Assembly: GCF_026343945.1 (NCBI RefSeq)
Contig: NZ_JAPKNJ010000001.1
Location: 1,302,001-1,366,000 of the forward strand
Reading direction: 5' to 3'
Length of the DNA: 64,000 bases
Source of the DNA: Kaistia algarum
GTDB taxonomy: Bacteria; Pseudomonadota; Alphaproteobacteria; Rhizobiales; Kaistiaceae
Shown: one piece after another, positions 9,243 through 25,557 of the stretch
How positions within the stretch are numbered: the first letter of the stretch is position 1
Layout of the letters: every line of letters begins with the position of its first letter
The notes under the pieces: model-generated
Told to the model about the DNA's origin: nothing
What the model saw: only the letters and a program-made list of their open reading frames with translations
The model's database searches: none
Made by a program: the position numbers and the translations under genes

Positions 9243-10283
9243 ATGAAGCGAACCTTTATCCAGCTCGCCCTCGCAGCGGGCCTTGCTGCGCTGGCCACGA
9301 GCGTATCCGCGGCGGGCATTGCCGGAGCGCCCGCGCCCTTCGACAAGGGTGGCGTCAAGATCGCCGTCATCAGCTTTCTCGGCTCGGGCGACTGGCTCCA
9401 GGCCTTCGAGGCCGGCGTGAAGCGTCAGGCCGACGCCCTCGGCATCGACGCCAATATTTCGCAAGCCCGCAACGACATCAACCAGGAACGCGAACTGATC
9501 CAGCAGGCGATCAATCTCGGCGTCCAGGGCATCATCATCAATAACGGCCAGCCCGAAGCGATCAAGGACGTGGCGCAGGCAGCGCTCGACGCCGGCATCC
9601 CGGTCGTCGCCTACGACACCAATCTCGACAATCCCAAGATCCCACAGGTCGAGCAGTCCGATGCCGACATGGCACGGCTCGTCCTCGATCAGGCGGTGAA
9701 GGACCAGGGCGAGGCCTTTGATGGCGGCGTCGTCTATGTCGCCGGCTTCGCGCCTCTCGATCGCCGCTATGCCGTCTGGAAGGACTTCGGCAAGAAGTAT
9801 CCGGGCATCAAGGAAGCCGCGACCTGGGGCGTCGTCAACGACACGGTCGCGGCCTCCGTCGCCGACCAGACCAAGGCAGTGCTGCGCGCCAATCCCAGCA
9901 TTTCGGTCGTGTTCACGCCCTGGGACGAGTTCGCGCGCGGCGTAAAGCTCGCGATCGACGAACTGGGCGTCGCCGACAAGGTCAAGATCTACGGCGTCGA
10001 TATCTCGACCTCGGACATCCAGGCGATCATCGAGCCGGGCAGCCCCTGGGTCGCGACCGCGGCCACGAATCCCGCCGTCGTCGGCGAGGCTTCCGTTCGC
10101 GCGCTGGCCCAGCTCATCGCGGGTCAGGATCCAGGCCACAGCGTGGTGATCCAGCCGGCGCTGGTCACGCAGAAGGACCTCCTCGACAACAACATCAAGA
10201 CGATCGAGGAACTGCAGGCGAAGTTCCCGGCCTTCCAGGACAGCGACGCTGCCAAGGCGCCGTGGATTCCGGAAGCGAAGTAA
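9243..10283 (+). CDS. CUT2-type periplasmic sugar-binding protein
   Basis: 346 residues with an RTFIQLALAAG signal peptide cut near VSAAG. The rest is a type I periplasmic binding fold of the RbsB class: GDWLQAFEAGVKRQADALGI, INLGVQGIIINNGQPE, GIPVVAYDTNLDN and VVFTPWDEFARGVKLAIDE. ATG 9243 is preceded by AAGGA; the longer open frame to 9204 has no signal peptide logic. It heads the operon with an LVIVD protein, ATPase and permease, and is a close paralogue of the protein at 16314-17357, sharing the mature N-terminus GIAGAPAPFDKGGVK. Given the neighbouring mtn genes a ribose-like thio-sugar or nucleoside is a reasonable but untested ligand. Confidence 0.85.
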   Translation: MKRTFIQLALAAGLAALATSVSAAGIAGAPAPFDKGGVKIAVISFLGSGDWLQAFEAGVKRQADALGIDANISQARNDINQERELIQQAINLGVQGIIINNGQPEAIKDVAQAALDAGIPVVAYDTNLDNPKIPQVEQSDADMARLVLDQAVKDQGEAFDGGVVYVAGFAPLDRRYAVWKDFGKKYPGIKEAATWGVVNDTVAASVADQTKAVLRANPSISVVFTPWDEFARGVKLAIDELGVADKVKIYGVDISTSDIQAIIEPGSPWVATAATNPAVVGEASVRALAQLIAGQDPGHSVVIQPALVTQKDLLDNNIKTIEELQAKFPAFQDSDAAKAPWIPEAK

Positions 10284-10316
10284 GGCAAGACGACCAGCAC
10301 CAAAACCCGCAAGGCG

Positions 10317-10399
10317 GTCATCCCCGGGCTAGACCCGGGGATCCAGCATTTTCGGGCCGCCGCGGAAGGCTGGGTTGCCGGGTCGAGCCCGGCAATGAC
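10317..10399. repeat. Compound palindromic repeat (rhizobial REP/RPE type)
   Basis: Two hairpins in tandem: 10321-10328 with 10334-10341 (TCCCCGGG arms) and 10375-10382 with 10388-10395 (TTGCCGGG arms), bordered by GTCAT and ATGAC. This arrangement is typical of dispersed intergenic palindromes in Hyphomicrobiales. It sits between the binding-protein gene and the rest of its operon. Confidence 0.75.
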
Positions 10400-10437
10400 A
10401 GAGAATGCAACACCGCCGAGAAGCCTCAGAGACCTCC

Positions 10438-11691
10438 ATGACCCTGCCCGCTCCCGACTTCGCCCGCAACATGCGCCTGATCGGCCATTCCGATCAGGGC
10501 GGACGGCCGGATGCGCTCCAGGTCATGGTGCATCGAGGCTACGCCTATGTCGCGCACCCGTGGTCGCAGGGCTTCTCGATCATCGACGTGCGCGATCCGA
10601 AGAACCCCGGCGAGACGGTGTTCGTGCCGGCGCCGCCCAACACCTGGAACATCCATCTCCAGACGCATGACGACCTGCTCCTCGTCATCCATGCGCGCGA
10701 CCTCTTCGCCGATGCCGCCTTCGCGGTGGACGAGAAGGTCTATTATACGAAGTCCGTCGGCGAGACCGTCGGCACGGCCGCGGGCGGCCGGGCTGCGCGC
10801 AACTGGTCGGCCGGCGTCGCGATCTACGATATCGCCAACCCCACGACGCCGCGCCGGATCGGCTTCTTCCCCGTCGAAGGCGTCGGCGTCCATCGCATCT
10901 GGTATGTCGGCGGGCGCTACGCCTATGTCTCGGCGCTGATCGACGGCTATAGCGACTATATCTTTCTCATCATCGACCTCGCCGACCCGACAAAGCCAGT
11001 CGAGGCGGGACGCTGGTGGATCCCCGGCATGCATCTGGCCGGCGGCGAGACGGCGAACTGGCCGGACGGCCGGCGCTATGCGCTGCACCACGCGCTGGTC
11101 GAGGGCGACACGGCCTATGCCTGCTGGCGCGACGGCGGTCTGACGATCCTCGATATCAAGGACCGCACGGCGCCGAAGCTCGTCACGCACCGCAACTGGT
11201 CGCCGCCCTATGGCGGCGGCACGCATTCGGCCCTGCCGCTGCCCAAACGCGATCTTCTGGTCGTTGCCGACGAAGCGGTGCTCGATAATGAAGAGGACGG
11301 GCGCAAGCTCACCTGGATCTTCGACATCCGCGAGCCGTCCAACCCGGTCTCGATCGCGACGCTGCCAGTTCCCGGCGAGGCCGACTACGCCGCGAAGGGT
11401 GGCCATTTCGGCCCGCATAATCTGCATGAAAACCGGCCGGGCAGCTTCCAGTCCGACACGCTGATCTTCGCGACCTGGCAAAATGCTGGCGTGCGCGCCT
11501 TCGACATCTCCGATCCCTACCGGCCAAAGGAGACCGGGGCGCTGGTTCCCGCCGGTCCGGCGCGCATGGTCGACAGGCGGCAGGGGCGCCCGCCCGTGAT
11601 CCAGTCCGCCGATCTCTTCGTCGACGCCAACGGCATTATCTATTCGACAGATTACAATGCGGGGCTGTCGATCATCGAATATGGCGGCTAA
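10438..11691 (+). CDS. LVIVD-repeat beta-propeller protein of unknown function
   Basis: 417 residues without a signal peptide, so probably cytoplasmic. Repeated blade-like units such as YAYVAHPWSQGFSIIDVRDP, AGVAIYDIANPTTPRRIG, YIFLIIDLADPTKPVE, GGLTILDIKDRTAPKLV and AGVRAFDISDPYRPKE mark an LVIVD beta-propeller of about six or seven blades. Conserved-looking His clusters (ALHHALVEG, GTHSALPLP, GGHFGPHNLHE) could be a metal site; that is inference. The gene lies inside a CUT2 transport operon between binding protein and ATPase, so a lactonase-, isomerase- or regulator-like role on the imported compound is possible, but no function can be assigned. Confidence 0.7.
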   Translation: MTLPAPDFARNMRLIGHSDQGGRPDALQVMVHRGYAYVAHPWSQGFSIIDVRDPKNPGETVFVPAPPNTWNIHLQTHDDLLLVIHARDLFADAAFAVDEKVYYTKSVGETVGTAAGGRAARNWSAGVAIYDIANPTTPRRIGFFPVEGVGVHRIWYVGGRYAYVSALIDGYSDYIFLIIDLADPTKPVEAGRWWIPGMHLAGGETANWPDGRRYALHHALVEGDTAYACWRDGGLTILDIKDRTAPKLVTHRNWSPPYGGGTHSALPLPKRDLLVVADEAVLDNEEDGRKLTWIFDIREPSNPVSIATLPVPGEADYAAKGGHFGPHNLHENRPGSFQSDTLIFATWQNAGVRAFDISDPYRPKETGALVPAGPARMVDRRQGRPPVIQSADLFVDANGIIYSTDYNAGLSIIEYGG

Positions 11692-11748
11692 GAGAAGCCG
11701 CGCGGCCATCGCCGCCGATAGAAAGACACTGCGGAAACCGATACGGCC

Positions 11749-13278
11749 TTGACCACACCATCCTCTCCCGTCGCGATATCCGTCTCCGGCATCGAGAAAT
11801 CCTTTGGTCCGACGCGGGCGCTCGCCGGCGCGGATCTTTCCGTTGCCGCCGGTGAGATTGTGGCGCTCATGGGGGCGAATGGCGCCGGCAAGTCGACGCT
11901 GGTCAAGATCATCTCCGGAACCTACCTGCCCGATGCCGGAACCGTGACGCTGGCCGGGCGGACCGTCGCCTTCGCCTCGCCGCGCGAGGCCAAGGCGGCC
12001 GGGGTCGCGACCGTGCACCAGGCGACGGACCAGGCCGGCGCCGCCGGGCTCACGGTTGCCGAGAATCTGCTGCTGGACGAACTCTGCGGCTCTGGCTCGC
12101 TATTCGTCTCCGGCCGTTCGATCAAGCGCCGCGCGGCCGAGATTGCCGGCCTCATCGATCTTCACCTGCCGATGGACCGCGACTTCCTCGATCTACGGCC
12201 TGCCGAACGCCAGCTCATCGCCATCGCGCGCGCCGTCGCCGCCAAGGCCTCGGTCCTGATCCTCGACGAGCCGACCTCCAGCCTTTCCACGGAGGAGGCA
12301 GAGCGGCTGTTTGCCCTCTTGAGAAGGCTACGAGCGCAAGGCATGGCGATCCTCTATATCTCGCACCGGCTGGGCGATCTGGCGGCCATCGCGGATCGCG
12401 CCGTTGTGCTACGTGGCGGCCGCATCGTCGGCGCCTTTCCGCGGCCCATCGACCTCGCCGCTGCCGTCGCCGCCATGATCGGCCGTCCGCTCGAGGCTGC
12501 CGCCCATAGCGGGGAACCATCCTCTGCCCCGATCCTCGCATCGCTTCGAGGGGCGCAGCTCATTCCAGGTGCGCTGCCCTTCGATCTAGACCTGCGCTCC
12601 GGCGAGGTGGTGGCGATCACGGGAACGCTGGGTTCGGGCAAGAGCCGCCTGCTCCGCGTCCTTTTCGGACTCGAAAGCCTCGCCGCCGGCAGCGTCACGA
12701 TTGACGGGAAGGACTGGGTTTCGAGCGGACCGGGACATTCGATCGCGAGCGGCGTCTTCATGGTCGCTGAGGATCGCTGGCAGTCTTCGCTGCTGCCGCC
12801 CGAAACGCCCGGCGCCTCGATTGCCGGCACGATCGCGCTGCCGCATCTGCCGCGCTGGTTCCCGGCCGGAATTCTCAACGCGACGCGCGAACGCCTTGCC
12901 GCGACCGAGGCCATCCGCCGCCTCGGCATCAAGGCGCGCGGCCCCGACGATACGCTCGACCAGCTCTCGGGCGGCAACCAGCAGAAGGTCGTGCTCGCCA
13001 GATGGCAGGCGGCGCCGTGCCGTCTGCTGTTGCTCGACGAGCCCTTCCAGGGCGTCGATGTCGGCGCCCGTGAGGACCTGATCGCGGCGATCCGCGGCAG
13101 TCAGGCCGGCTCCGCAACCCTGATTGCGACCTCCGACACCGAAGAAGCGCTGGAGGTTGCCGATCGCATCCTCGTCATGCGCGATCACACCCTTATCGCG
13201 GCCGATGGCAGCCAAGGCTCGCTGGCAGCCGTCATTGGCGGCGTCGAAAGCGCCGAGACCGGAAAGATCCGTCCATGA
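11749..13278 (+). CDS. CUT2 sugar ABC transporter ATP-binding protein (two domains)
   Basis: 509 residues with two fused ATPase domains as in RbsA/MglA. Domain 1: Walker A GANGAGKST (residues 42-50), degenerate signature LRPAERQ, Walker B VLILDEPTSSLS. Domain 2: degenerate Walker A GTLGSGKS, good signature LSGGNQQK and Walker B LLLLDEPFQGVD. The start is a TTG at 11749; a stop lies in frame at 11719 and no ATG or GTG occurs between, so TTG is the only start upstream of the Walker A motif. It overlaps the permease gene by ATGA. It energises uptake together with the permease at 13275. Confidence 0.88.
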   Translation: MTTPSSPVAISVSGIEKSFGPTRALAGADLSVAAGEIVALMGANGAGKSTLVKIISGTYLPDAGTVTLAGRTVAFASPREAKAAGVATVHQATDQAGAAGLTVAENLLLDELCGSGSLFVSGRSIKRRAAEIAGLIDLHLPMDRDFLDLRPAERQLIAIARAVAAKASVLILDEPTSSLSTEEAERLFALLRRLRAQGMAILYISHRLGDLAAIADRAVVLRGGRIVGAFPRPIDLAAAVAAMIGRPLEAAAHSGEPSSAPILASLRGAQLIPGALPFDLDLRSGEVVAITGTLGSGKSRLLRVLFGLESLAAGSVTIDGKDWVSSGPGHSIASGVFMVAEDRWQSSLLPPETPGASIAGTIALPHLPRWFPAGILNATRERLAATEAIRRLGIKARGPDDTLDQLSGGNQQKVVLARWQAAPCRLLLLDEPFQGVDVGAREDLIAAIRGSQAGSATLIATSDTEEALEVADRILVMRDHTLIAADGSQGSLAAVIGGVESAETGKIRP

Positions 13279-14294
13279 GTGCATCCGCCAACCCGACGCC
13301 GCAGCGGCCGGCTTCCAGCTTCGCCGAGATCGCGCGACGCTATGCGCTGTTCGTGCTGCTCGCCCTGATGCTGGTCGGCTTCTGGCGAGCCCAGCCGGCC
13401 TTCATCAATTCGGCCAATCTGTTTTCGATCCTGCAGGCGGTCTCCGTCGTCGCCATCCTTGGCGTCGGTGTCTCGATTACCATGTCCGCCGGCGGCTTCG
13501 ATCTTTCCGTCGGCAGCATCGCCGCGTCATCCGTGATGGCCGCGAGCTATGCCATGGTCGTGCTGCAGATGAACGCGACCGAGACGTTCCTGCTGGTGCT
13601 GGCCATGGGCGCACTGATCGGCCTCGCCAACGGTCTGCTTATCGTCAAGGTCGGCGTGCCGGACCTGCTTGCGACGCTGGCAACGATGTTCCTGCTGGCC
13701 GGCCTTCAGCTCATCCCGACCGGCGGCCGCTCGATTACAGCCGGCATGGCGCTGCCGGACGGCTCGACGGCCAAGGGCGCCTATGACCCCGCCTTTCTCA
13801 TCCTCGGCCGCTCGCGCCTTTTCGACGTGGTGCCGTTGCCGGTGGTCGTCATGGCGGTCGTCGCCGTGCTCGCCTGGTTCCTGATGGAGCGGACGCGCTT
13901 CGGGCGCGTCTTCTATGCGATCGGCGGCAATGAGACGGCAGCCCATCTCGCTGGCGCGCCGACCAAGGCCTATCGCCTCTGGGCCTACATCATCTCCGGC
14001 ACGCTGGCCTCACTCGGCGGTTTGATCATCGCCTCGCGAGTTGGCCGCGGCGACGTCTCGGCAGGCAATTCACTGCTGCTCGACGCCGTCGCAGCCTCGC
14101 TGATCGGCTTCGCCGTGCTCGACAAGCGCCGCCCGCATGTCCTCGGCACCGTACTCGGCGCGATCTTCGTCGGCGTGCTGCTGAACGGCCTCACCATGCT
14201 CAACGCGCCCTATTACACGCAGGACTTCGTCAAGGGCGCCGTGCTGGTCGGCGCGCTGGCGCTGACATTTGGATTGGGGAAAAGGAAGCGGTGA
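13275..14294 (+). CDS. CUT2 sugar ABC transporter permease (RbsC-like)
   Basis: 339 residues, about eight to ten hydrophobic helices. Family landmarks are ILGVGVSITMSAGGFDLSVGS, the stretch following GLANGLLIVKVGVPDLLATL and the cytoplasmic AIGGNETAAHLAGAPTKAYR, which corresponds to the conserved GGN.AARLSGI segment of ribose-type permeases. Four-base ATGA overlap with the ATPase gene shows translational coupling. The operon ends here; the next gene (vapC) is convergent and begins directly after the stop, without a visible terminator between. Confidence 0.87.
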   Translation: MSASANPTPQRPASSFAEIARRYALFVLLALMLVGFWRAQPAFINSANLFSILQAVSVVAILGVGVSITMSAGGFDLSVGSIAASSVMAASYAMVVLQMNATETFLLVLAMGALIGLANGLLIVKVGVPDLLATLATMFLLAGLQLIPTGGRSITAGMALPDGSTAKGAYDPAFLILGRSRLFDVVPLPVVVMAVVAVLAWFLMERTRFGRVFYAIGGNETAAHLAGAPTKAYRLWAYIISGTLASLGGLIIASRVGRGDVSAGNSLLLDAVAASLIGFAVLDKRRPHVLGTVLGAIFVGVLLNGLTMLNAPYYTQDFVKGAVLVGALALTFGLGKRKR

Positions 14295-14684
14295 TCAGTC
14301 CCAGATGCGTTCGACATCGAAAAGATCGAGCGCCGGATCGGCGGACAGGATAGGTAGTCCGTTCGACTGACTTTGCGCCGCCAGCAAGCGATCAAAGGGG
14401 TCGCGATGGCTGAGGGGAAGCAGCCCGGCTGCCTGAGCATCGCGGAGAGTGATAGCGAGGGAAAGAAGTCCTGCGGACCGGCATTGCGCTTCGAAAGCCG
14501 TGGCAAGCTCGCCGACTTCAGGCCATTTTCCGATGTTGAACTTCAGAGCGATCTCATACGCCGATACCGGACTGACGAAAATGTCGTTCTCGTCGCCTGC
14601 GATCGCGTCGATCACGCGCTGCGGAAGCCGCACTCGGTCATTGAATAGCCAGACAAGCGTGTGGGTGTCCGCAAGATAGTTCAA
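14295..14684 (-). CDS. vapC: VapC-type PIN-domain ribonuclease toxin
   Basis: 129 residues. PIN-domain acidic residues are in place: LADTHTLVWLF (first Asp), SAYEIALKF (Glu), HRDPFDRLLAAQ (Asp pair) and LSADP. This matches VapC toxins, which cleave RNA with Mg2+ and are neutralised by the adjacent antitoxin. I chose the TTG at 14684, giving the family start MNYLADTH; it overlaps the antitoxin stop as TTGA. A TTG four codons earlier is also open. The module is wedged between a transport operon and mtnK. Confidence 0.85.
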   Translation of the reverse strand: MNYLADTHTLVWLFNDRVRLPQRVIDAIAGDENDIFVSPVSAYEIALKFNIGKWPEVGELATAFEAQCRSAGLLSLAITLRDAQAAGLLPLSHRDPFDRLLAAQSQSNGLPILSADPALDLFDVERIWD

Positions 14685-14899
14685 TCGCCATACCAACGAT
14701 CGAGTTCTTCAGGGTCGAGCGGCGCCAGCGCCCGCTCAAGGGAAAGATCGATCTTTCCCTTGAGGGATCCGAAAGCCTTGCGCCGCAAGGCCGCCCTTTC
14801 CCGCCGCGCCTGAGGGTCATCGTCCGAGGGAAGCCCCGGCCATTCATGGGGCGCACTCGTTCCGGAAGGCTTGTGGTTCATCGCTGCGCCGATCTTCAT
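14681..14899 (-). CDS. vapB: VapB-like antitoxin
   Basis: 72 residues, strongly charged, immediately upstream of vapC with a four-base overlap. The C-terminal half, with RRKAFGSLKGKIDLSLERA and APLDPEELDRWYG, resembles DUF2281-type antitoxin tails in which a FGSxKGKI segment binds the toxin. ATG 14881 (MNHKPSG) is an alternative start. Identification rests mostly on pairing and size. Confidence 0.65.
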   Translation of the reverse strand: MKIGAAMNHKPSGTSAPHEWPGLPSDDDPQARRERAALRRKAFGSLKGKIDLSLERALAPLDPEELDRWYGD

Positions 14900-14947
14900 C
14901 GAAGCCTATCTCGTCTTCTCCGATCATATAGGCTTCGATCAGCCAGC

Positions 14948-16207
14948 TCAAACCGCCCGCGCCGCCGCAACGATATCCTCTGCCGTCCGGAAGCTTGCCG
15001 GCTCCAGCAGAAACTGCCGCGCCAGGCGGATCGATTTCGTCTCAAGCGGTGCGCGCTTGGCCGGGTCGGCGATCGTTTCGAAATCGGCGTTATGGGCGAA
15101 GCCGAGGATTCGGCGGATGGTCTTGACGCCGGCGTAGGCGACGGCGTCGGCAAAGACGCGGTCCAGGAACTTCGTGCGCGCCGCATCCAGCGCGGCGGCA
15201 TCGCCGGCGCCGAACATCGCCGGAGGATAGGCATCGCCGCGAGCCTTCGTCTCCCAGAGCGAGCGGAAGCGCGTGGCGAAGGCATTCCAGAAGACCGGCA
15301 CCTGGTCCAGCACCCAGTCCGCCTGCTCGCGCCGATCGTCAGCAGCCGTTGCATGGCCGGGTTGGGCAAAGAAGTTCATCACCAGATTGGCAAGAAAAGC
15401 GCCGACGTCAAAGCCGATCGGGCCGAGGATGGCGAATTCCGGATCCATGACGCGGGTATCCGTCTCGGTGACCATGACCGAGCCGGTGTGGAGGTCGCCG
15501 TGGATGAGCGCCTGCCCTTCCGTCAGGAAGCGCCAGCCCCAGTCGGCGACCGTTGTCTTGAGCGCGGAATCGGCGCGGAATTCGCGGGCGAGATCGTCCA
15601 GCGCTGGGCTCGTCCAGCGGTTTCGCGGCGAATTGCCGAGCGGATCCGTGAAGACCACCTCGGCGGTGATGCGCAGCAGCGAGGTATTCCGGGCAAAGAC
15701 CGAGGACCATTCGGCCTTTTCCTCGATGGTGGCGCCGAGGTCCGACGTCGCGAAGATGGCGCGCGCGGCATAGTCGCCGACATCGGCGGCAACCTTGGGA
15801 TAGCGCCTGCCCTCGATCAAGCCACGCCGAAGGATGATATGCGGCGAGAGCTTTTCCATGACGATGGCGTAGAGCGCCGGCTCGTAATGATAGAATCGCG
15901 GTGTCAGCCCTTCGACGGAAGACGCGACGGCGCGGTAGTAGGCCTGCTCGAAGAACGCGCGATCGAGCGGCAGCGGCCAGCTTTCGCCCGCGGCGCGCAC
16001 ATAAGGCAGCGCCTGTTTCAGACAGACCGAGCCCTCGGGACCATCGATGAGAAAGACAAGGTTGAGGTTGCCGTCGCCGACTTCGACGACACGCCAGTCC
16101 GCCGGCTTGCCGCCAAGACGCGTGCGGATATCCGGGAGGCTATCCAGGAAAGCGCAGACGGAATCCTCGTTGAACGAATAGTAGCCGGGCGGCGTATCGA
16201 GGGGCAT
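14948..16207 (-). CDS. mtnK: S-methyl-5-thioribose kinase
   Basis: 419 residues, the normal MtnK length. EVGDGNLNLVFLID is the nucleotide-binding GDGNLN loop of MTR kinases, ALIHGDLHTGSVMV contains the catalytic Asp of the kinase-like fold, and VMDPEFAILGPIGFDVG the metal-binding DPE motif. It phosphorylates 5-methylthioribose to the 1-phosphate in methionine salvage. The ATG at 16207 gives the usual N-terminus; the frame is open further to 16300 across a terminator and is not believed. mtnA is not adjacent. The related 5-deoxyribose kinase of the DHAP shunt is an alternative, but mtnB-mtnD nearby favour methylthioribose. Confidence 0.85.
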   Translation of the reverse strand: MPLDTPPGYYSFNEDSVCAFLDSLPDIRTRLGGKPADWRVVEVGDGNLNLVFLIDGPEGSVCLKQALPYVRAAGESWPLPLDRAFFEQAYYRAVASSVEGLTPRFYHYEPALYAIVMEKLSPHIILRRGLIEGRRYPKVAADVGDYAARAIFATSDLGATIEEKAEWSSVFARNTSLLRITAEVVFTDPLGNSPRNRWTSPALDDLAREFRADSALKTTVADWGWRFLTEGQALIHGDLHTGSVMVTETDTRVMDPEFAILGPIGFDVGAFLANLVMNFFAQPGHATAADDRREQADWVLDQVPVFWNAFATRFRSLWETKARGDAYPPAMFGAGDAAALDAARTKFLDRVFADAVAYAGVKTIRRILGFAHNADFETIADPAKRAPLETKSIRLARQFLLEPASFRTAEDIVAAARAV

Positions 16208-16263
16208 GACGGACTCGCGGCGTTTCAAGCTTCTCATGGGGCGTTGGCCTAACCCCATACGAC

Positions 16264-16297
16264 AAAAGCCCCTCCCCGACCAACGGGGAGGGGCTTT
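16264..16297 (-). terminator. Rho-independent terminator after the second binding-protein gene
   Basis: AAAGCCCCTCCCCG at 16264-16277 pairs with 16284-16297 (14 bp), 17 bases beyond the stop of the minus-strand gene at 16314, with a short T-run on that strand. It separates this gene from mtnK, which must then be read through or have its own promoter. Confidence 0.8.
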
Positions 16298-16313
16298 CAA
16301 TAGTAGTCGTGGT

Positions 16314-17357
16314 TCAGTTCGCCGGGATCCAGGGCGCCGTCGCCGCGTCGCTCTTGCCGAAGGCCGGGAGCTTGGCGTTCAGATCCTCGACTGTCCTGAT
16401 CGCATTGTCGCGCAGATCCTTCTGCGTGATCAGGACGGGCTTGACGACGATGCTGTGGCCCGGATCTTCGCCGGCGATCAGCTTGGCCACGGCGCGAACC
16501 GACACCGCACCGACGACGGCCGGGTTGGTTGCGGCGGTGGCGACCCAGGGGCTGCCCTCGGCAGCGATCTCGGTGATGTCCGCCGTCGATACGTCGGCCG
16601 AATAGATCTTCACCTTGTCGGAGATGCCGGCCTCGTCCGTCGCGAGCTTCACGCCGCGGGCAAACTCGTCATAGGGGGCAAACACGACAGTGATGTCGGG
16701 ATTGGCCTGGAACGCGGCCTTGGTCTGGTCGGCGGTCGACGTCGCGGTCGTGTCGTTCACCGCGCCCCAGCGCGCCTTCTCGACGATGCCGGGATTGGCC
16801 TTCTTGACCTCGTCCCAGATCTCGTTGCGGCGATCGAGCGGCGCGAAGCCGGCGACATAGACATAGCCGGCATTGAACGCGGTGCCGTTATCGGCAAGCG
16901 CCTGGCCGAGCGCGGCCTTGGCCAGTTCATGGTCGGACTGCTCGACCTGCGGAATCTTCGGATTGTCGAGATTGACGTCGAAGGCGACGACCTTGATGCC
17001 GGCGTCGAGCGCCTTCTGCGCGACGTCCTTCAGCGCTTCGGGCTGGCCATGGTCGATGATGATGCCCTGGACGCCGAGATTGATCGCCTGCTCGACCTGC
17101 TCGCGCTGCGCGGCAGCGTCCTGGCGGCCGGAGAAGATCTGGAGGTCGATGCCGAGCGCCTTGGCCTGAGCCTGCGCGCCCGACTGATAGGCCTGGAAGA
17201 AATCGCCGCCCGAGATGAAGGTAACGAGCGCGACCTTGACGCCGCCCTTGTCGAAGGGGGCCGGAGCGCCGGCGATGCCGTCGGCATGGGCGACCGCGCC
17301 GAGCAGCGAGCCGGCGAGCAGGCCCGCGCCGACGAGCCGAAGAATGGAACGCTTCAT
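16314..17357 (-). CDS. Second CUT2-type periplasmic binding protein, without its own transporter
   Basis: 347 residues, signal peptide MKRSILRLVGAGLLAGSLL ending near VAHADG, then the RbsB-like fold. It is a clear paralogue of the 9243-10283 protein: same mature start GIAGAPAPFDKGGVK, same VYVAGFAPLDRR, DEFARGVKLA and SPWVATAATNPAVVG segments and the same C-terminus. GGGAGAGA 7 bases before ATG 17357 is a strong ribosome site. No ATPase or permease accompanies it; it is monocistronic, ended by a terminator, and divergent from mtnB. I infer that it feeds the transporter at 11749-14294 with a related ligand. Confidence 0.83.
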   Translation of the reverse strand: MKRSILRLVGAGLLAGSLLGAVAHADGIAGAPAPFDKGGVKVALVTFISGGDFFQAYQSGAQAQAKALGIDLQIFSGRQDAAAQREQVEQAINLGVQGIIIDHGQPEALKDVAQKALDAGIKVVAFDVNLDNPKIPQVEQSDHELAKAALGQALADNGTAFNAGYVYVAGFAPLDRRNEIWDEVKKANPGIVEKARWGAVNDTTATSTADQTKAAFQANPDITVVFAPYDEFARGVKLATDEAGISDKVKIYSADVSTADITEIAAEGSPWVATAATNPAVVGAVSVRAVAKLIAGEDPGHSIVVKPVLITQKDLRDNAIRTVEDLNAKLPAFGKSDAATAPWIPAN

Positions 17358-17613
17358 GTATGTCTCTCCCGATGGTCGTTTCTTTTGGGGCTCGCCGTCG
17401 AGGGCGCGCCGCTTGCGCTCAACGAACAGCCCAAAAGGGGTGAACTGGCAATCATTTTTTGATACAGCGGCAGAATGGTGCCGCGAAACGAAGGATTTTC
17501 TATTTGCGGCGCGAGAATTGGCAAATTCCGCCTCGGATAGGCGGGGGTTGCGGCGTTAGCTGAGGAAATAACGTGGCCGCCGTCAGGCGGCACCGTTGCT
17601 GTGGAGGTTTTGC
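17358..17613. promoter_or_regulatory. Divergent mtnB / binding-protein promoter region with dyads
   Basis: 256 bases. GAATTGGCAAATTC at 17515-17528 is a 14-base dyad with 12 matching positions, a likely repressor site. Two small hairpins follow in the mtnB leader: 17528-17533 with 17539-17544, and GCCGCC at 17576-17581 with GGCGGC at 17586-17591 around GTCA, ending 11 bases before the GGAGG ribosome site of mtnB. A leader-type control is possible; I cannot match it to a known SAM-sensing riboswitch. Confidence 0.4.
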
Positions 17614-18264
17614 ATGGCCAGCACCGTGCTTCTGGCGAGCGGATCAGGCGACGAGGCGCGCGCGGTTGCCGAGGTGATCGCAGCCGGCCGGAGCGCGGCG
17701 TCGCGGCATTGGGTGCCTGCGACCTCCGGGAATTTCTCGGTCCGGATCGATGCTGAGCGGATCGCCATTACGCGCTCAGGCGTCGACAAGGGCGCCCTCC
17801 AGAGCGCCGACATCCTGATCCAGCCCCTGAACACGCCGCTACTGCCGCGCTCATCGGCCGAAGCCCCGCTTCATGTTGCGCTCTATCGCCAGCATCCCGA
17901 GATCGGCGCTATCTTCCATGCGCACAGCCCGGCGGCGACGGTGCTTTCGCGCCTCGCCGAACCGGCGGGCCGTATCCTCCTGACGGGCTGGGAACTGCAG
18001 AAAGCGCTGAGCGGCGTGCGGACGCACGAAGCCATTGTGGAAGTTCCGGTCTTCGCCAATGAGCAGGACACGGATGCACTGGCGACGCGGGTGGAGGCGC
18101 GCATGGCCGAGACCGGCTCCGCCTTCCATCCGGCGCCCGGATACCTACTTTCGGGACATGGCCTCTATGCCTGGGGCGGCACGTCCGCCGACGCGGCTCG
18201 CCATCTCGAAGCCCTGGAAGCCCTGTTCGAATTTGAACTTTCCTACCGGAGATTCACGCCATGA
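17614..18264 (+). CDS. mtnB: Methylthioribulose-1-phosphate dehydratase
   Basis: 216 residues of the class II aldolase/adducin fold. ATSGNFSVR is the phosphate-binding loop, the zinc ligands are His102 and His104 (IFHAHSP) and His182 (LLSGHGLYAWGG), and Glu83 in SAEAPLH is the expected catalytic residue. MtnB dehydrates methylthioribulose 1-phosphate to the diketo compound. GGAGG at 17603-17607 supports ATG 17614 rather than the upstream frame. Its stop overlaps the mtnD start (ATGA), which makes the MtnB assignment much stronger than that of a fuculose- or deoxyribulose-phosphate aldolase. mtnC, which should act between the two enzymes, is not here. Confidence 0.88.
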   Translation: MASTVLLASGSGDEARAVAEVIAAGRSAASRHWVPATSGNFSVRIDAERIAITRSGVDKGALQSADILIQPLNTPLLPRSSAEAPLHVALYRQHPEIGAIFHAHSPAATVLSRLAEPAGRILLTGWELQKALSGVRTHEAIVEVPVFANEQDTDALATRVEARMAETGSAFHPAPGYLLSGHGLYAWGGTSADAARHLEALEALFEFELSYRRFTP

Positions 18265-18818
18265 CGACGCTGACCATCTATCCCGACACCAACCCGGACC
18301 ATCCCGACGTCGTCACGTCGGATCCGGCCGAGATCACCAAGCTGCTGAACTCGGTCGGCGTCGCCTTCGAGCGCTGGAAGGCCAGCGTCGAGCTGCCCGA
18401 GAACGCCACGCCGGATCAGGTCATCGCCGCCTACAAGCCCGAGGTGGACCGCCTTTCAGCCGCTGCCGGCTACCAGACAGTCGATGTCATCCGCATCACC
18501 CCCGACAATCCCAACAAGGATGCGCTGCGCGCCAAGTTCCTGGACGAGCACACCCATGACGAGGACGAAGTCCGCTTCTTCGTCGAGGGGTCCGGCGCGT
18601 TCTACCTGCATCTCGCCGACAAGGTCTATCAGGTCGTCTGCACGCGCGACGACCTCTTGTCGGTGCCGGCTGGCACGCTGCACTGGTTCGACATGGGCCC
18701 GGAGCCGCGTTTCACCTGCATCCGCCTGTTCATCACGCCGGACGGCTGGGTGGCGAAGTTCACCGGCGACAAGATCTCATCGCTGATCCCGCGCTTCGGC
18801 GAACAGATCGCGGCATAA
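18261..18818 (+). CDS. mtnD: Acireductone dioxygenase
   Basis: 185 residues, cupin fold. The metal ligands His97, His99, Glu103 and His141 (DEHTHDEDEVR and GTLHWFDMG) sit one residue from the positions known in the Klebsiella enzyme. With Fe2+ it converts acireductone to the keto-acid of methionine and formate; with Ni2+ the same protein gives methylthiopropionate, CO and formate. It is coupled to mtnB by overlap. The presence of nickel genes 3 kb downstream makes metal identity a real question. Confidence in the family is very high. Confidence 0.93.
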   Translation: MTTLTIYPDTNPDHPDVVTSDPAEITKLLNSVGVAFERWKASVELPENATPDQVIAAYKPEVDRLSAAAGYQTVDVIRITPDNPNKDALRAKFLDEHTHDEDEVRFFVEGSGAFYLHLADKVYQVVCTRDDLLSVPAGTLHWFDMGPEPRFTCIRLFITPDGWVAKFTGDKISSLIPRFGEQIAA

Positions 18819-18861
18819 GGCGCGACGCACCCGCCAGAAGCGTCGGCGCCGATGGGCAAGC

Positions 18862-18897
18862 CCCTCACCCCAACCCTCTCCCGCTAGCGGGTGAGGG
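18862..18897. repeat. Intergenic palindrome after mtnD
   Basis: CCCTCACCC (18862-18870) pairs with GGGTGAGGG (18889-18897) and encloses the palindrome CCGCTAGCGG (18881-18890). It resembles the common CCCTCTCCC-type dispersed element also seen at 30895-30918. The rest of the 224-base mtnD-deaminase gap shows no gene. Confidence 0.6.
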
Positions 18898-19042
18898 AGG
18901 GACCTGCTTCTCTTTCCCGCGCGCATCGGTTCCGCGTTTCCTCGCGAAACCGCACATCGCACCGTCGCTTGCCGCCAATCTCGGCTTGCGCCTTCGCCAA
19001 TCCATTGCAAATCTGGCCGCCTTTCGAAGAAGGCCGGATTTC

Positions 19043-20386
19043 ATGGTTAGACAGCTCCTCCACAGCGCTACCCTCCTCACCGTCGACGACAGCGACCGCG
19101 TCATTGATGATGGCTGGCTGATCATCGAGGACGGACGTATCGCCGAAATCGGGGGCGGAACGCGAAAGCCAGGGCCAAGTGGTTTCGACGAGGTGATCGA
19201 TCTTTCCGGGCATCTGCTTATGCCCGGGCTCGTCAATGCCCATACCCATAGCGCGATGATCCTCTTCCGCGGACACGCCGAAGGCCAGAGCCTCCTCACC
19301 ATGGAGGGCTGGTACAATGCGATCCGCGAGCCGGAACTCGCCATGATCGCCGAGGACATGGCGCCGGCCGTCGCGCTCTCGTGCGCCGAAATGGCGCTTT
19401 CCGGCACCACTACCTTCTGCGACCAGTATTTCTTCGCCGAGGAGATTGCGGCGGCCGCGGCGAGGGCGGGGCTCCGCGCCGTCATTGCCTATGGCATCGT
19501 TCAGCTCGGGGACGAGGTGCGCGGCACCGAAGAGCTCGCCAAGGCCTCGGCCTTTGTCGAGGGCCAGCGCTCTGCCGACGGCCGCGTCATTCCCTGGTTC
19601 GGGCCGCATGCCCCTTATGTCGACAATTCCGAGGCGCTGCTCACCGAGGAGGTGAAGGTCGCCAACCGGCTCGGCTGCGGCATCCACCTGCATATGGCCT
19701 GCGGACCGGAGGACAATGAACTGACGCTGGCGCGCTACGGCACCACCGCGTCCGTCGCGCTGGAGAAGGCCGGCTTCTTCAATGGCCGCATCCACGCGGC
19801 CCATTGCCTCGATTTGTCAGCCGAGGATATCGCGGTTTTTGCCCGCGCCGAAGCCGCCTCGGTCGCTCACTGCGCCTCGGCAGGACTCCGCTCCGGACGC
19901 GAGGCGATCTGCCCCGTTGTGCCGCTTCGAGAGGCCGGCGTCACCGTCGCGCTGGGGACCGACAATGTCGCCGCCAACAATGCCTATGACATGATCGCCG
20001 AGATGCGTGTCGCCGGTCTCGTCGCTTCGCATCGCGAGGGCCGAGCGCAGCCGATTTCGTCGCGCGAACTGGTTCGCATGGCGACGATCGAAGGGGCGAA
20101 GGCCCTCGGCCTCGAGCATGAGATCGGCAGCCTGGAAGCGGGCAAGGCGGCGGATCTGGTGGCCATCGACATTTCTGGGCCCGGCTACTCCAACACGCCG
20201 GATGCAGCGACGCTACTCATCTATTCGGGCTCCGGCCGCGATGTCCGCCATGTCTGGGTCGCAGGAGAGCGACTGGTACGCGATCGCCGACTGACCCGGC
20301 GCGCGTTCGCCGAAATCCGCGCCGATTACGACGCCTCCTATCGAATCTTCTGGCAGCGCGTTCAAGCTGCGAAGGAGGCCGCGTGA
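19043..20386 (+). CDS. Amidohydrolase of the MTA/SAH deaminase family
   Basis: 447 residues. An N-terminal composite domain precedes the metallo-barrel. Metal ligands are His67/His69 (LVNAHTHSAM), a His in GIHLHMACG, a His in AAHCLDLS and an Asp in ALGTDNVAANNAYDM; the last segment resembles the GTDGAASNN signature of 5'-methylthioadenosine/S-adenosylhomocysteine deaminases (COG0402). The predicted reaction is hydrolytic deamination of MTA to methylthioinosine. Other COG0402 enzymes (guanine, chlorohydrolase type) cannot be excluded by reading. ATG 19043 fits the family N-terminus. The next gene's start overlaps the stop. Location after mtnB-mtnD strongly supports a methylthio-nucleoside. Confidence 0.75.
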   Translation: MVRQLLHSATLLTVDDSDRVIDDGWLIIEDGRIAEIGGGTRKPGPSGFDEVIDLSGHLLMPGLVNAHTHSAMILFRGHAEGQSLLTMEGWYNAIREPELAMIAEDMAPAVALSCAEMALSGTTTFCDQYFFAEEIAAAAARAGLRAVIAYGIVQLGDEVRGTEELAKASAFVEGQRSADGRVIPWFGPHAPYVDNSEALLTEEVKVANRLGCGIHLHMACGPEDNELTLARYGTTASVALEKAGFFNGRIHAAHCLDLSAEDIAVFARAEAASVAHCASAGLRSGREAICPVVPLREAGVTVALGTDNVAANNAYDMIAEMRVAGLVASHREGRAQPISSRELVRMATIEGAKALGLEHEIGSLEAGKAADLVAIDISGPGYSNTPDAATLLIYSGSGRDVRHVWVAGERLVRDRRLTRRAFAEIRADYDASYRIFWQRVQAAKEAA

Positions 20387-21342
20387 TGGCCGCCCGCAAA
20401 CTCCTCGTCGACACGGATGGCGGCACCGACGATGCCATGGCGCTGGCGCTGCTCGCCGCAGGCGGCCGGGCGCCGGACTTCGTCACCACGGTCTTCGGCA
20501 ATGTAGCGCTGAAGCAGGCCACGGCGAACATATTGGCGACGCTGGCGGTATTCGGCATCGCAGCCCCGGTTCATGCTGGCGCCGATCGGCCGCTGATCGG
20601 CGCTGCGATCGATGCGAGCGACGTGCATGGCGAAGATGGGCTCGGCGGCGCGCCCCGACCCGCGCGAACTGCCAACATTGCGTCGGAGAATGGCGTCGAT
20701 TTCCTGCGGGCGACGCTGCGTGATGCAGCCAAGAGCGAACCGATCGACATCCTCGCGCTCGGGCCGCTCACCAATCTCGCCTTGGCGCTCCGGACGGAGC
20801 CAGCGCTCGTCGGCGGCATTGCCAGCCTGGTGATCATGGGCGGGACATCGCGCGGGCGCGGCAATGTCACGGGCGCGGCGGAATTCAACATCCTCGCCGA
20901 TCCGGAGGCAGCTGCGATCGTGCTGTCACTGCCGCTATCGACGGTATTGGTGCCCTGGGAGCCGTGCGTCGACGCGACGCTCACCGGCGCGGAACTCGAC
21001 GCGATGTTCGCCCGCGCTAAGCGCGGCGAGCGTTACGAGTTCCTCAAAGCGCTGGTCGACCAGTTGCGCCGCGTCACGATGGCCTATGGCAGCCCGGACG
21101 GCTTCGCGCCGCCCGATCCGCTCGCTGCCGCGATACTGCTCGACCCTGCGATCGCCACGACGATCATCAAGGCCGGCGTCACCGTCGAATGCGGCGGCAC
21201 GTTCGCGCGCGGCGCCACGATCTTCGATGAACCACCACGATGGGGATTGCCACCGATCGAGACGGTCGACGGCATAGACGTGCCGCGATTCAAGGCGATG
21301 TTCGCCTATGCGGTAGAGGTGCTCTGCGCCGACCGGCAATGA
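20386..21342 (+). CDS. Nucleoside hydrolase (inosine-uridine type fold)
   Basis: 318 residues. DTDGGTDDA at the N-terminus gives the Ca2+ ligands Asp9, Asp11, Asp15 and Asp16 of nucleoside hydrolases; LALGPLTNLALAL, VIMGGTSRGRGN and AAEFNILADPEAA are further family blocks. The late metal Asp is Asp244 in APPDPLAAA, but the preceding residue, His in typical inosine-uridine hydrolases, is Pro243. AAGGAGG at 20372-20378 selects ATG 20386; a GTG at 20383 is the alternative. It would cleave the N-glycosidic bond of the deaminase product, giving hypoxanthine and a free (methylthio)ribose, the substrate of MtnK. Substrate is inferred from context. Confidence 0.78.
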   Translation: MAARKLLVDTDGGTDDAMALALLAAGGRAPDFVTTVFGNVALKQATANILATLAVFGIAAPVHAGADRPLIGAAIDASDVHGEDGLGGAPRPARTANIASENGVDFLRATLRDAAKSEPIDILALGPLTNLALALRTEPALVGGIASLVIMGGTSRGRGNVTGAAEFNILADPEAAAIVLSLPLSTVLVPWEPCVDATLTGAELDAMFARAKRGERYEFLKALVDQLRRVTMAYGSPDGFAPPDPLAAAILLDPAIATTIIKAGVTVECGGTFARGATIFDEPPRWGLPPIETVDGIDVPRFKAMFAYAVEVLCADRQ

Positions 21343-21373: not shown

Positions 21374-21976
21374 TCAGAGAAATCCGGTCAGGATGCCGAC
21401 GCCAGCAATCGCTGCCAGACCGCCGGCCGTACGCATGACGACAGGACCGTACTTTTCGCTGATCTTCCCGATCCCGAAGCCGACGGCGATGCCGGCGATG
21501 TGGAGCAGCGCTGTCGCGAGCATGAAGCCGGCAGCATAGGCGAGACCGCCAGCATCTTCCGGCATCTCCGCGCCATGAGCGTGTCCGTGGAAGATCGCGA
21601 AGAGCCCCACGAGACCCATAGCCGCCGCGATGGGCGCCTTGACGCCAAGGGCGACAATGGCTCCCAGCACGATGACCGAAAGCGCGATGCCTACCTCGAC
21701 AAAGGGAACGTTCACCCCGGCGATGCCCAGCGCGCCGCCGATCGCCATGACGACGACGAAGGTCGTGGGAACGGCCCAAAGTGCCCGTCCTCCCAGTTGC
21801 CAGGCAAAGATACCAACCATCACCATTGCCAGGATGTGGTCGAGACCATTGATCGGGTGCGAAAACCCATGAATGAAACCGCTGGTCTCGCCGACACCCG
21901 TGTGAGCGAAGGCCAGTGACGGGACAAGCAGCAGCGGCGCCGCCACGGCGAGCTTGCGAGCGATTGAACGGACCAT
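21374..21976 (-). CDS. hupE: HupE/UreJ-type nickel permease
   Basis: 200 residues with a cleavable signal peptide (cut after LAFA, leaving His25 as the first mature residue) and six further helices. The family's nickel motif HX5DH is present as His40 to Asp46-His47 in GFSHPINGLDHILAM, plus His36 and a second cluster FHGHAHGAE. Such proteins import Ni2+ for hydrogenase or urease. The GGGGAAG before ATG 21976 decides the start; the upstream frame is noise. It is transcribed behind nikR on the same strand, 85 bases apart, so it is a likely NikR target. No hydrogenase or urease gene is in the window. Confidence 0.85.
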   Translation of the reverse strand: MVRSIARKLAVAAPLLLVPSLAFAHTGVGETSGFIHGFSHPINGLDHILAMVMVGIFAWQLGGRALWAVPTTFVVVMAIGGALGIAGVNVPFVEVGIALSVIVLGAIVALGVKAPIAAAMGLVGLFAIFHGHAHGAEMPEDAGGLAYAAGFMLATALLHIAGIAVGFGIGKISEKYGPVVMRTAGGLAAIAGVGILTGFL

Positions 21977-22845: not shown

Positions 22846-23904
22846 ATGAAGAAGGTTTTGAAGGCGCTGACCCATGGAGCGGCGGCGCTGACGGTGGTTG
22901 CGGGCGTCGGTATGGCCGTTGCCCCGGCAAACGCCGAGACCAAATATACCAAGGAGAACCCGCTCAAGGTCGCGCTCGTGCTGAACGGCACGCTGGGCGA
23001 CAAGGCGTTCTTCGATTCGGCGCAGGACGGTATGAACCGCGCCATGAAGGACCTTCCGGTCACGGTGAAGACGATCGAGGCTGGCTACAATCGCGCCAGC
23101 TGGGAGCCGGCCTTGGCCGATGCCGCCGAAGGCGACTATGATCTGGTGATCGCCGGCACGTTCGACATGGCCGACCCGATGGCCGAAGTGGCCCCCGAGC
23201 ATCCCGACAAGAAGTTCGTCTATTTCGACAACGTCATGGACTATTCGAAGGGCTTCGAGAACGTGCTGTCGGTCCAGTACCGCACGTCGACGGCCGCCTA
23301 TCTGGCCGGCTACGCAGCCGCCAGCGTCTCGAAGACCGGCACGCTCGGCCAGATCCTCGGCACCGAAGGCTCCGTCATCCTCGAATTCGTCGTCGGCTTC
23401 GAGCAGGGCGCCAAGGCGGCCAAGCCGGACATCAAGCTGCTGCGCGCGACCGTCAATTCGGCCAATCCTTTCAGCGACCCGGCCAAGGGCAAGGAACTCG
23501 CTCTCGCCCAGATCCAGCAGGGCGCTGACGTGATCTTCCCGATCGCCGGCGGAACCGGCATCGGCGCGCTCCAGGCAGCGCGCGACTCCAAGGTCATGGC
23601 CATCGGCGTCGACGCCGACCAGGCGACGATCTTCTCGGCCACCGACATGGCCCAGGCCGATGTCATCATCACCTCGGTCGAGAAGCGCGTCGGCGACTCG
23701 CTCTACGTCATCCTGAAGCAGGCCGTTGACGGCACGGCCAAGTATGGCACCGCTTCGACCCTCGGCCTGCAGGAAGGTTCGACGGGTATCTCGAAGAACA
23801 AGTGGTACGAAGGCTTCGTCCCGGCCGACGTCCGCGCCAAGATCGATCAGGCGGAGAAGGACATCATCGCAGGCACGATCAAGGTCGACACGACCATGCA
23901 GTAA
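22846..23904 (+). CDS. BMP-family ABC transporter substrate-binding protein (nucleoside-like)
   Basis: 352 residues. Signal peptide from MKKVLKALTHG to about APANAE, without a lipobox cysteine. Family signatures include VALVLNGTLGDKAFFDSAQDG, DLVIAGTFDMADPMAEVAPEHPDKKFVYFD, YRTSTAAYLAGYAAAS, and IFPIAGGTGIGALQAA. BMP proteins mostly bind purine nucleosides (PnrA type) but some bind sugars or autoinducer-like molecules. AGGGAGA before ATG 22846 supports the start. Its own ATPase and two permeases follow after a strong hairpin. The nucleoside hydrolase and deaminase just upstream fit a nucleoside ligand. Confidence 0.87.
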   Translation: MKKVLKALTHGAAALTVVAGVGMAVAPANAETKYTKENPLKVALVLNGTLGDKAFFDSAQDGMNRAMKDLPVTVKTIEAGYNRASWEPALADAAEGDYDLVIAGTFDMADPMAEVAPEHPDKKFVYFDNVMDYSKGFENVLSVQYRTSTAAYLAGYAAASVSKTGTLGQILGTEGSVILEFVVGFEQGAKAAKPDIKLLRATVNSANPFSDPAKGKELALAQIQQGADVIFPIAGGTGIGALQAARDSKVMAIGVDADQATIFSATDMAQADVIITSVEKRVGDSLYVILKQAVDGTAKYGTASTLGLQEGSTGISKNKWYEGFVPADVRAKIDQAEKDIIAGTIKVDTTMQ

Positions 23905-23911
23905 GGCCTTT

Positions 23912-24006: not shown

Positions 24007-25557
24007 ATGACTCCTTTTCTCCAAGCGATTGGCATCGATAAGACGTATCCGGGCGGCGTTCATGCCAACCAGAGCATCGACCTCTCGGTAGCGCACAGCA
24101 CCGTCCATGCCGTCGTCGGCGAGAATGGTGCCGGCAAGTCGACCCTCATGAAGATCCTTTTCGGCGTCGAACAGCCGAATGCCGGCGAGATACTCCTCGA
24201 CGGCAAGCCGATCGTCCTCCATTCGCCGCGAGCCGCGATTTCCGCCGGCATCGGCATGGTGTTCCAGCACTTTTCGCTCGTCCCGTCCTTCACCGTCGCC
24301 GAAAATGTCGTCCTTGGCGTGGAGCCCCGGTCCGGCCTGAAACTCGATCGCAAGCGCGCCTCCGACACGGTGCGCGAACTTGCCGAACGCTTTCGCCTCC
24401 CCGTCGATGTCGATGCCCCGGTCGAGCAATTGCCTGTCGGGCAGCAGCAGCGGGTCGAGATCCTCAAGGCGCTGTATCGCGACGCCCGACTGCTGATCCT
24501 CGACGAGCCGACGGCCGTGCTGGCGCCGCAGGAGGTCGTCGAGCTGTTCGCCGCGGTTCGCTCGCTCACCTCGCAGGGCCGAACCATTCTCTTCATCGCC
24601 CACAAGCTGCCGGAAGTGCTGGAGATCTCCGATACGATCTCCGTGATGCGCGGCGGAAAGATGGTGGGCACCGTGGCGGCCAAGGATGCGACGGAGAAGA
24701 GCCTCGCCCGCATGATGGTCGGCCGCGATGTCGCGCTGAAGATCAACCGCGCGGCGCCGGGCGCCGAGCATACGCATCTGTGCCGCATCTCCGAGCTGAC
24801 CGTCAAAAACGACCATGGCCTCAACGCGGTCTCGGACGTCAATCTCGTGCTGCGCACCGGCGAGATCGTCGGCATTGCCGGCGTCGAGGGCAACGGGCAG
24901 AGCGAGCTCTTCGACGCGATCGGCGGGCTGAGGCCGATTGCGGCCGGTTCGGTCGAACTGGGCAAGACGGACATCACGAATGTCAGCGTTCTCGAGCGGC
25001 GCGCCGCCGGCATGGCCAATATTCCCGAAGACCGCATCGCAACCGGCAGCGCCGGCGGTGCGACGGTCGCGGAGAACATCGTCGCGACGGAGCTGACCGA
25101 CAAGCGCTTCGTGCGCAACGGCCTGCTCGATCTGAAGAGCATCCGCGCCCATGCGGTCAAGCTGATCGAGAAGTTCAGCGTCCGTGTCCAGGGGCCAGAA
25201 TCAGCCATCGGGACGCTTTCCGGCGGCAACATGCAGAAGGTGGTCGTCGCGCGCGAATTGTCGTCGGAACCCAGCCTGCTGCTCGTCTCGCACCCGACAC
25301 GAGGCGTCGATCTCGGCGCCACCGAATTCATCTGGCAGAACATCGCCAAAGCGCGTGACGCCGGTGCCGCAGTCCTGCTGACATCGGCCGACCTTTCCGA
25401 GATTCTCGCCTTGGCGGATCGGATGATCGTTCTTTATCGCGGCCGCATCGTCGCCGCCTTCGTCAATACGGAAGAGGTCACTCCGGAAGTGCTGGGTAGC
25501 TACATGCTGGGATTTGCCGAACAACCGGCCGAAGAACGCAACGCGGCACTCGCATGA
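24007..25557 (+). CDS. BMP-type ABC transporter ATP-binding protein (two domains)
   Basis: 516 residues with two fused ATPase domains. Domain 1: GENGAGKS (residues 38-45), signature-like LPVGQQQR, Walker B LLILDEPTAVL. Domain 2: degenerate Walker A VEGNGQSE, canonical LSGGNMQK, and a Walker B in which the usual Asp-Glu is replaced (LLLVSHPTRGVD). Such a weakened second site is normal for ATPases of this nucleoside/sugar class, as is the QPTRGVD-like ending. ATG 24007 has only a weak ribosome site. It overlaps the permease gene by ATGA. Confidence 0.88.
   Translation: MTPFLQAIGIDKTYPGGVHANQSIDLSVAHSTVHAVVGENGAGKSTLMKILFGVEQPNAGEILLDGKPIVLHSPRAAISAGIGMVFQHFSLVPSFTVAENVVLGVEPRSGLKLDRKRASDTVRELAERFRLPVDVDAPVEQLPVGQQQRVEILKALYRDARLLILDEPTAVLAPQEVVELFAAVRSLTSQGRTILFIAHKLPEVLEISDTISVMRGGKMVGTVAAKDATEKSLARMMVGRDVALKINRAAPGAEHTHLCRISELTVKNDHGLNAVSDVNLVLRTGEIVGIAGVEGNGQSELFDAIGGLRPIAAGSVELGKTDITNVSVLERRAAGMANIPEDRIATGSAGGATVAENIVATELTDKRFVRNGLLDLKSIRAHAVKLIEKFSVRVQGPESAIGTLSGGNMQKVVVARELSSEPSLLLVSHPTRGVDLGATEFIWQNIAKARDAGAAVLLTSADLSEILALADRMIVLYRGRIVAAFVNTEEVTPEVLGSYMLGFAEQPAEERNAALA

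Follow-up and report, generated by a model that had tools for sequence, protein, structure and literature searches.

In the universal methionine salvage pathway, MtnK or MtnP is followed by MtnA, MtnB, MtnC and MtnD. In Pseudomonas aeruginosa, a 5′-methylthioadenosine (MTA) deaminase is paired with a methylthioinosine phosphorylase (excerpts of PMC6302742). Clusters have also been described for the dihydroxyacetone phosphate (DHAP) shunt and 5-deoxyribose salvage (excerpts of PMC6079011 and PMC10986504). Among binding proteins and hydrolases, Tlet_1677 (4RY8) for 5-methylthioribose (MTR) and the inosine-uridine (IU) nucleoside hydrolases (1MAS) are the closest described relatives of the proteins considered here. 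In this study, we analyzed a locus of Kaistia algarum that contains mtnK, mtnB and mtnD, a CUT2 transporter with two solute-binding proteins (SBP1 and SBP2), an amidohydrolase and a nucleoside hydrolase. The window, the whole stretch of 64,000 nucleotides that was analyzed, covers positions 1302001-1366000 of contig C1 in a genome of 5.26 Mb. We propose that the locus probably consists of two neighbouring but separate units, an MTR scavenging locus (unit 1) and a nucleoside operon (unit 2). The gene content, the genome inventory, the conservation of context and the states of key residues are observations; all activities and ligands, and the lack of coupling between the units, are inferred. The features are as follows.

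9243..10283, + strand: CUT2 binding protein 1 (SBP1), MTR-type by similarity (PF13407; 4ry8, 203 bits)
10438..11691, + strand: LVIVD-repeat protein, which accompanies SBP1 (PF08309)
11749..13278, + strand: CUT2 transporter ATPase (PF00005, two stretches)
13275..14294, + strand: CUT2 transporter permease (PF02653)
14948..16207, - strand: mtnK, 5-methylthioribose kinase (TIGR01767, 464 bits, cut-off 275; 2pyw, 2olc)
16314..17357, - strand: CUT2 binding protein 2 (SBP2), MTR-type by similarity (PF13407; 4ry8, 230 bits)
17358..17613, no strand: region between the divergent SBP2 and mtnB genes, containing a conserved block (alignment of eight Kaistia-group sequences)
17614..18264, + strand: mtnB, methylthioribulose-1-phosphate dehydratase (TIGR03328, 186.5 bits, cut-off 137)
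18261..18818, + strand: mtnD, acireductone dioxygenase (PF03079, 124 bits)
18819..19042, + strand: intergenic stretch with a conserved block at the amidohydrolase start, a candidate promoter of its own (alignment of the six Kaistia-group loci with a short gap)
19043..20386, + strand: TRZ/ATZ-type amidohydrolase lacking the HxxE glutamate; placed in the nucleoside operon by context (PF01979, 180 bits; C220 at the Glu position)
20386..21342, + strand: IU-type nucleoside hydrolase; placed in the nucleoside operon by pocket residues and context (PF01156, 251 bits)
22846..23904, + strand: BMP/PnrA-like binding protein of the nucleoside operon (PF02608, 195 bits), kept beside the pair in relatives
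24007..27547, + strand: BMP transporter ATPase and two permeases, in a gene order conserved in orthologs
14295-14696, - strand: small PIN-like frame between permease and mtnK (by eye)
21374-22529: HupE/UreJ-like and NikR-like genes between the hydrolase and the BMP transporter (by eye)

The original prediction read this locus as a route from MTA to free MTR by deamination and then hydrolysis. The genes that it named exist as open frames at these coordinates and match their families in profile searches. The CUT2 transporter with two paralogous binding proteins was confirmed by PF00005, PF02653 and PF13407 matches: there are a single ATPase and a single permease, and SBP1 and SBP2 are 65% identical. 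Thus, the gene list was right, but it left out the LVIVD-repeat protein, the PIN-like frame and the BMP-type transporter downstream (22846-27547).

We searched the whole genome for methionine-salvage genes. It encodes two mtnK (over the cut-off), one mtnA, one mtnB (over the cut-off), two mtnC and one mtnD, so that these five genes of methionine salvage through MTR kinase are all present. The mtnB at the locus is the only copy over the cut-off, and the mtnD at the locus is the only PF03079 match. In this search mtnA was not found at the locus; it adjoins one mtnC about 340 kb away. The pathway from MTR onward is therefore complete only with genes lying elsewhere in the genome. MtnP is encoded on another contig (499 bits, cut-off 437). 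The PNP_UDP_1 family has four matches in the genome: MtnP, an AMP nucleosidase and two relatives of uridine phosphorylase that score below the cut-off. No MtnN-type nucleosidase was therefore seen among them. The original prediction took hydrolysis to be the MTA-opening step of this genome and named a separate, complete MTA route, combined with a lack of co-regulation, as a finding that would speak against it. The genome search gave the first half of this, a separate route with a clear MtnP and with mtnA and mtnC away from the locus. Two adenosine deaminases of PF00962 type also lie elsewhere. Furthermore, the second mtnK (393 bits) and the second mtnC (201 bits) stand in a row (L018 11067-16466; about 477,070-482,470 on contig C2 of the same genome). 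Upstream of them lie two genes that look like permeases (by eye) and one binding-protein-like gene without an NCBIfam match at 1e-25. This cluster is possibly another import operon for MTR or a 5-deoxy sugar.

Both binding proteins have 4ry8 as their best match in the PDB, and the next chain reaches 134 bits; their likeness to 4RY8 is thus above that to other sugar-binding proteins. The title of the 4RY8 entry is '5-methylthioribose transporter solute binding protein TLET_1677'. To see the context of such proteins, we took 297 genomes drawn from the order and collected SBP1 relatives at E <= 1e-70, which gave 54 matches in 46 genomes. Thirty stretches with SBP relatives, covering 31 of the 54 matches, were fetched. 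They contain mtnK in 22 (one of which is from a Kaistia-group genome, G244), mtnA in 21 and neither gene in eight. In the typical layout, mtnK and mtnA point away from the ATPase, permease and binding-protein genes. The part of the original prediction that a methylthio sugar is taken up and fed to MtnK is thus supported at the sequence level, by the 4RY8 matches and by mtnK near related transporters. MTR is the likely substrate of this sugar transporter, which has relatives in 46 of the 297 genomes sampled.

The Kaistia group, as used here, consists of K. hirudinis, K. soli, K. dalseonensis, entries labelled as Mesorhizobium sp. BR1-1-16 and as a Bosea metagenome-assembled genome, and other genomes of the same genus; eight genomes were compared for locus layout. 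In all eight, mtnB and mtnD are at the locus. Among the 30 stretches, G244 is the only one with mtnB and mtnD, and a class II aldolase is present in 12. Therefore, the Kaistia group seems to join an importer and a kinase of this kind to a dehydratase and a dioxygenase instead of an aldolase. This suggests that the product of one importer-kinase core goes to an aldolase in some genomes and to the methionine-salvage dehydratase and dioxygenase in Kaistia. At the locus, which has mtnK but not mtnA, no Ald2-type class II aldolase was found: the sole member of the Aldolase_II family there is scored as mtnB.

The two binding proteins may not be equivalent. In genome G243 (L136), an SBP1-like gene and an LVIVD gene occur without mtnK, beside genes of sugar-acid type (by eye); SBP1 could therefore differ from SBP2 in its ligand. 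Of the seven same-genus genomes in the order draw, six have both SBP1 and the LVIVD gene, and the seventh (G278) lacks both. The LVIVD-repeat protein has no evident signal peptide (by eye) and is weakly similar to SBP56. Its relatives occur in 29 of the 297 genomes (E <= 1e-60). At the 18 LVIVD loci examined, a sugar-type ABC ATPase of one family is nearby in 11, and the gene just before LVIVD belongs to one binding-protein-like family (by eye) in five. The protein is perhaps an accessory of ABC importers.

The pair of amidohydrolase and nucleoside hydrolase has a different context. A scan of the named genomes gave 64 amidohydrolase loci, 49 of which are at 69-90% identity, and then identity drops to 41% or less; the closest named relative is that of Kaistia hirudinis (90%). 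Outside the Kaistia group there are 44 ortholog loci, 69-76% identical to the window amidohydrolase. At 39 of these the hydrolase begins within 200 bases after the amidohydrolase, and 41 have a BMP binding protein. Three of the five loci without the hydrolase (L068, L082, L088) lack it despite long flanks. In the DNA fetched around the 44 loci, at E <= 1e-10, there was no match to mtnK, mtnA, mtnB, mtnC, mtnD, mtnP, SBP1 or SBP2 at any locus; both flanks reach at least 5 kb at 29 loci and at least 9 kb at 22, and the absence therefore holds over those distances. Accordingly, we rejected the idea that the pair is a member of an mtn operon conserved across lineages. In genome G223, the pair is on contig C21 and the transporter-mtnK-mtnA locus on contig C22. 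The neighbours, counted over 43 loci, include adenine-deaminase-like genes (34), a LacI regulator (34), creatininase-like (30), cytidine-deaminase-like (30) and GATase1-like genes (27), guanine deaminase (9) and ribokinase (8). Each family name rests on one representative, and those of the adenine-deaminase, cytidine-deaminase and creatininase families score below their NCBIfam cut-offs. Judged from such gene content, the neighbourhood looks like a nucleoside-use cluster. The transporter is of BMP/PnrA type, with a PF02608 binding protein, an ATPase and two permeases. The HupE/UreJ-like and NikR-like genes were not found at that position in several relatives.

We then compared residues. The ortholog alignment of the amidohydrolase has 58 rows, which are 52 distinct loci (six rows are contigs present twice). 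The metal ligands HxH, H, H and D are present (H67, H69, H217, H254 and D307); no aligned ortholog has a departing residue, and one incomplete row is gapped at H254 and D307. The glutamate of the HxxE motif after strand 5 is missing in all 58 rows (C in 38, A in 20; C220 in the window). In 17 other rows of the alignment, this position is E in 16 and a gap in one. E223, a conceivable substitute for the lost glutamate, is invariant in the 58 rows. In a database survey of the best 120 of 4,703 protein matches, the pattern HMA[C/A/V/T]GxE fits 119, with one misfit. The label 'MTA/SAH-deaminase-like' (SAH, S-adenosylhomocysteine) in the original prediction holds by similarity, since the closest PDB chains are 4gbd, 4dyk and 4f0r, but not at the active site, where the glutamate of the family is absent. 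The protein also falls short of the NCBIfam equivalog cut-offs (PRK09045, 310.7 of 540 bits; PRK15493, 171 of 779 bits). Several of the best 120 matches are named '5-methylthioadenosine/S-adenosylhomocysteine deaminase'. This name is unsafe for the group because the residue common to more distant family members is absent.

For the hydrolase, 47 partner sequences were aligned; they are distinct, and identical ones and those below 200 residues were left out. The equivalents of Asp10, Asp14, Asp15, Asn39 and Asp242, which we take to be the calcium- and ribose-binding residues of IU-type nucleoside hydrolases, numbering included, are kept in 47/47. The equivalent of His241, presumably the acid for the leaving group, is lost in 47/47 (V in 40, A in five, P in two).

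At the junction, the pair lies downstream of mtnD in most of the Kaistia group. The gap between mtnD and the amidohydrolase is 132-353 bp in six loci. In K. hirudinis it measures 3,774 bp and contains other genes (by eye). In the alignment of the six short gaps, the mtnD side is unconserved and the block before the amidohydrolase is conserved. The SBP2/mtnB gap (eight loci) contains a conserved block different from this one. The block before the amidohydrolase is a candidate for a promoter of its own on the basis of conservation, and a consensus scan of 17300-19100 gave no sigma-70 match before the amidohydrolase. The same scan gave one promoter-like match, on the minus strand at 17524-17495 in the SBP2/mtnB gap, where 0.2 were expected. 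A 21-base pattern from the SBP2/mtnB block, GGAACGAAGGATTTTCNNTTT, was found once in the genome with up to three mismatches (mirror control, 0). No regulon could be built because this pattern was not found elsewhere in the genome. The SBP2/mtnB block has inverted-repeat-like arms, GGATTTTC ... GGGAAATTCC (by eye), in the eight Kaistia-group loci. No known RNA element was detected in the window at the gathering threshold. The PIN-like frame is present at 49-93% identity in some Kaistia loci and missing in others. In G244, unit 1 is present, no amidohydrolase ortholog was found at E <= 1e-90, and the DNA fetched around its unit 1 locus showed no nucleoside hydrolase.

In the two-unit arrangement, external MTR, and possibly also 5-deoxyribose, would be bound by SBP1 or SBP2 and imported by the CUT2 transporter. 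MtnK would phosphorylate the imported MTR, and MtnA, encoded elsewhere, would isomerise it. Dehydration by MtnB, the MtnC step (also encoded elsewhere) and oxidation by MtnD would then give the methionine precursor. The cell's own MTA would enter at MTR-1-phosphate via MtnP. Separately, the BMP transporter would import a nucleoside, which the amidohydrolase would modify and the nucleoside hydrolase would split into base and ribose. The two units probably came to lie side by side in the Kaistia lineage.

Several points weigh against this separation. The pair is downstream of mtnD in seven of the eight Kaistia-group genomes, within 353 bp in six, and this kept adjacency could reflect a functional tie. 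Outside the group, one flank is shorter than 5 kb at 15 of the 44 loci. A 5′-fluoro-5′-deoxy nucleoside is accepted by a nucleoside hydrolase from trypanosomes (excerpts of PMC7408626); therefore, a 5′-methylthio substrate is not impossible. In G244, mtnD is followed by LacI and GATase1-like genes (by eye), two kinds of gene that relatives have in their nucleoside cluster. Directly upstream of SBP1 in the same genome (L204, L135) is a different, purine-type cluster. It contains a BMP-like transporter, an amidohydrolase whose HLAE motif is intact, genes resembling guanine deaminase and adenine deaminase, and a Rieske-like frame (by similarity or by eye). Purine-type genes therefore occur on both sides of the MTR locus in the genus. 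A functional link between the units is possible.

Another reading concerns unit 2. The pair may degrade a non-standard nucleoside with a base that can leave without the ordinary acid catalysis; in that case, the two enzymes would have lost their usual proton-transfer residues together. The joint loss (Glu in 58/58, the His241 equivalent in 47/47) with metal and ribose residues kept, and the dedicated BMP transporter, are in its favour. So is AtzC, an amidohydrolase without Glu at this position, whose His219Ala variant retains about two thirds of the wild-type kcat, while His249Ala is dead (excerpts of PMC4577212). However, the genes clustered with the pair in relatives are for ordinary nucleoside use (adenine-deaminase-like, cytidine-deaminase-like, guanine deaminase and ribokinase), and therefore point more to common nucleosides. 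In addition, the role of His241 is our assumption. We regard this reading as rather doubtful. Equally tentative is the view that the amidohydrolase is a separate, HxxE-less subfamily that, with the acid-less hydrolase and the BMP importer, forms an undescribed non-standard-nucleoside pathway in Devosia, Kaistia and relatives.

For unit 1, the CUT2 system might import chiefly 5-deoxyribose or another pentose, with MtnK serving a DHAP-shunt-like pathway. The aldolase in 12 of the 30 stretches and the SBP1-like and LVIVD genes of G243, beside sugar-acid-type genes, fit this idea, as does an aldolase relative elsewhere in the K. algarum genome (L015, 45% identical). However, mtnB and mtnD are kept at the locus throughout the Kaistia group, and the closest solved relative of the binding proteins is titled as an MTR-binding protein. 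We consider this idea unlikely.

Deamination of MTA to methylthioinosine, hydrolysis to free MTR and phosphorylation by MtnK, as originally predicted, is chemically possible and agrees with the position of the amidohydrolase beside mtnD in six loci, its overall similarity to MTA deaminases and the lack of MtnN among the PNP_UDP_1 matches, but we judge it highly improbable, since MtnP is present, the pair is mostly found with a BMP transporter and never with mtn genes in the DNA fetched outside the group, it has its own conserved upstream block and lies on another contig in G223, the HxxE glutamate is missing and the ribonucleoside pocket of the hydrolase is intact. Among the best-ranked titles from a library of open-licence papers, none dealt with this locus or with a deaminase-hydrolase route to MTR.

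The two units can be compared with the known systems. Like the P. aeruginosa MTA deaminase, the Kaistia amidohydrolase has the amidohydrolase fold and metal ligands. It differs from that system, as far as the excerpts of PMC6302742 describe it, in the absence of the HxxE glutamate, in having a nucleoside hydrolase rather than a phosphorylase as partner, and in that the Kaistia-type pair was not found in an mtn context outside Kaistia. The hydrolase resembles 1MAS in the residues that presumably bind calcium and ribose, and departs from it in having V, A or P at the His241 position. Both binding proteins match Tlet_1677 over nearly the full length, with 35% identity for SBP1 in the structural alignment, and the MTR-type assignment comes from overall similarity. 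The clusters for the DHAP shunt and 5-deoxyribose salvage, as given in the excerpts of PMC6079011 and PMC10986504, share a kinase beside a putative sugar transporter; in contrast, the Kaistia locus has mtnB and mtnD where the aldolase would be. Finally, mtnK, mtnP, mtnA, mtnB, mtnC and mtnD of the universal pathway are all in the genome. In contrast to that pathway, the Kaistia genes are split over at least three places, and a CUT2 importer with two binding proteins accompanies the MTR-specific part.

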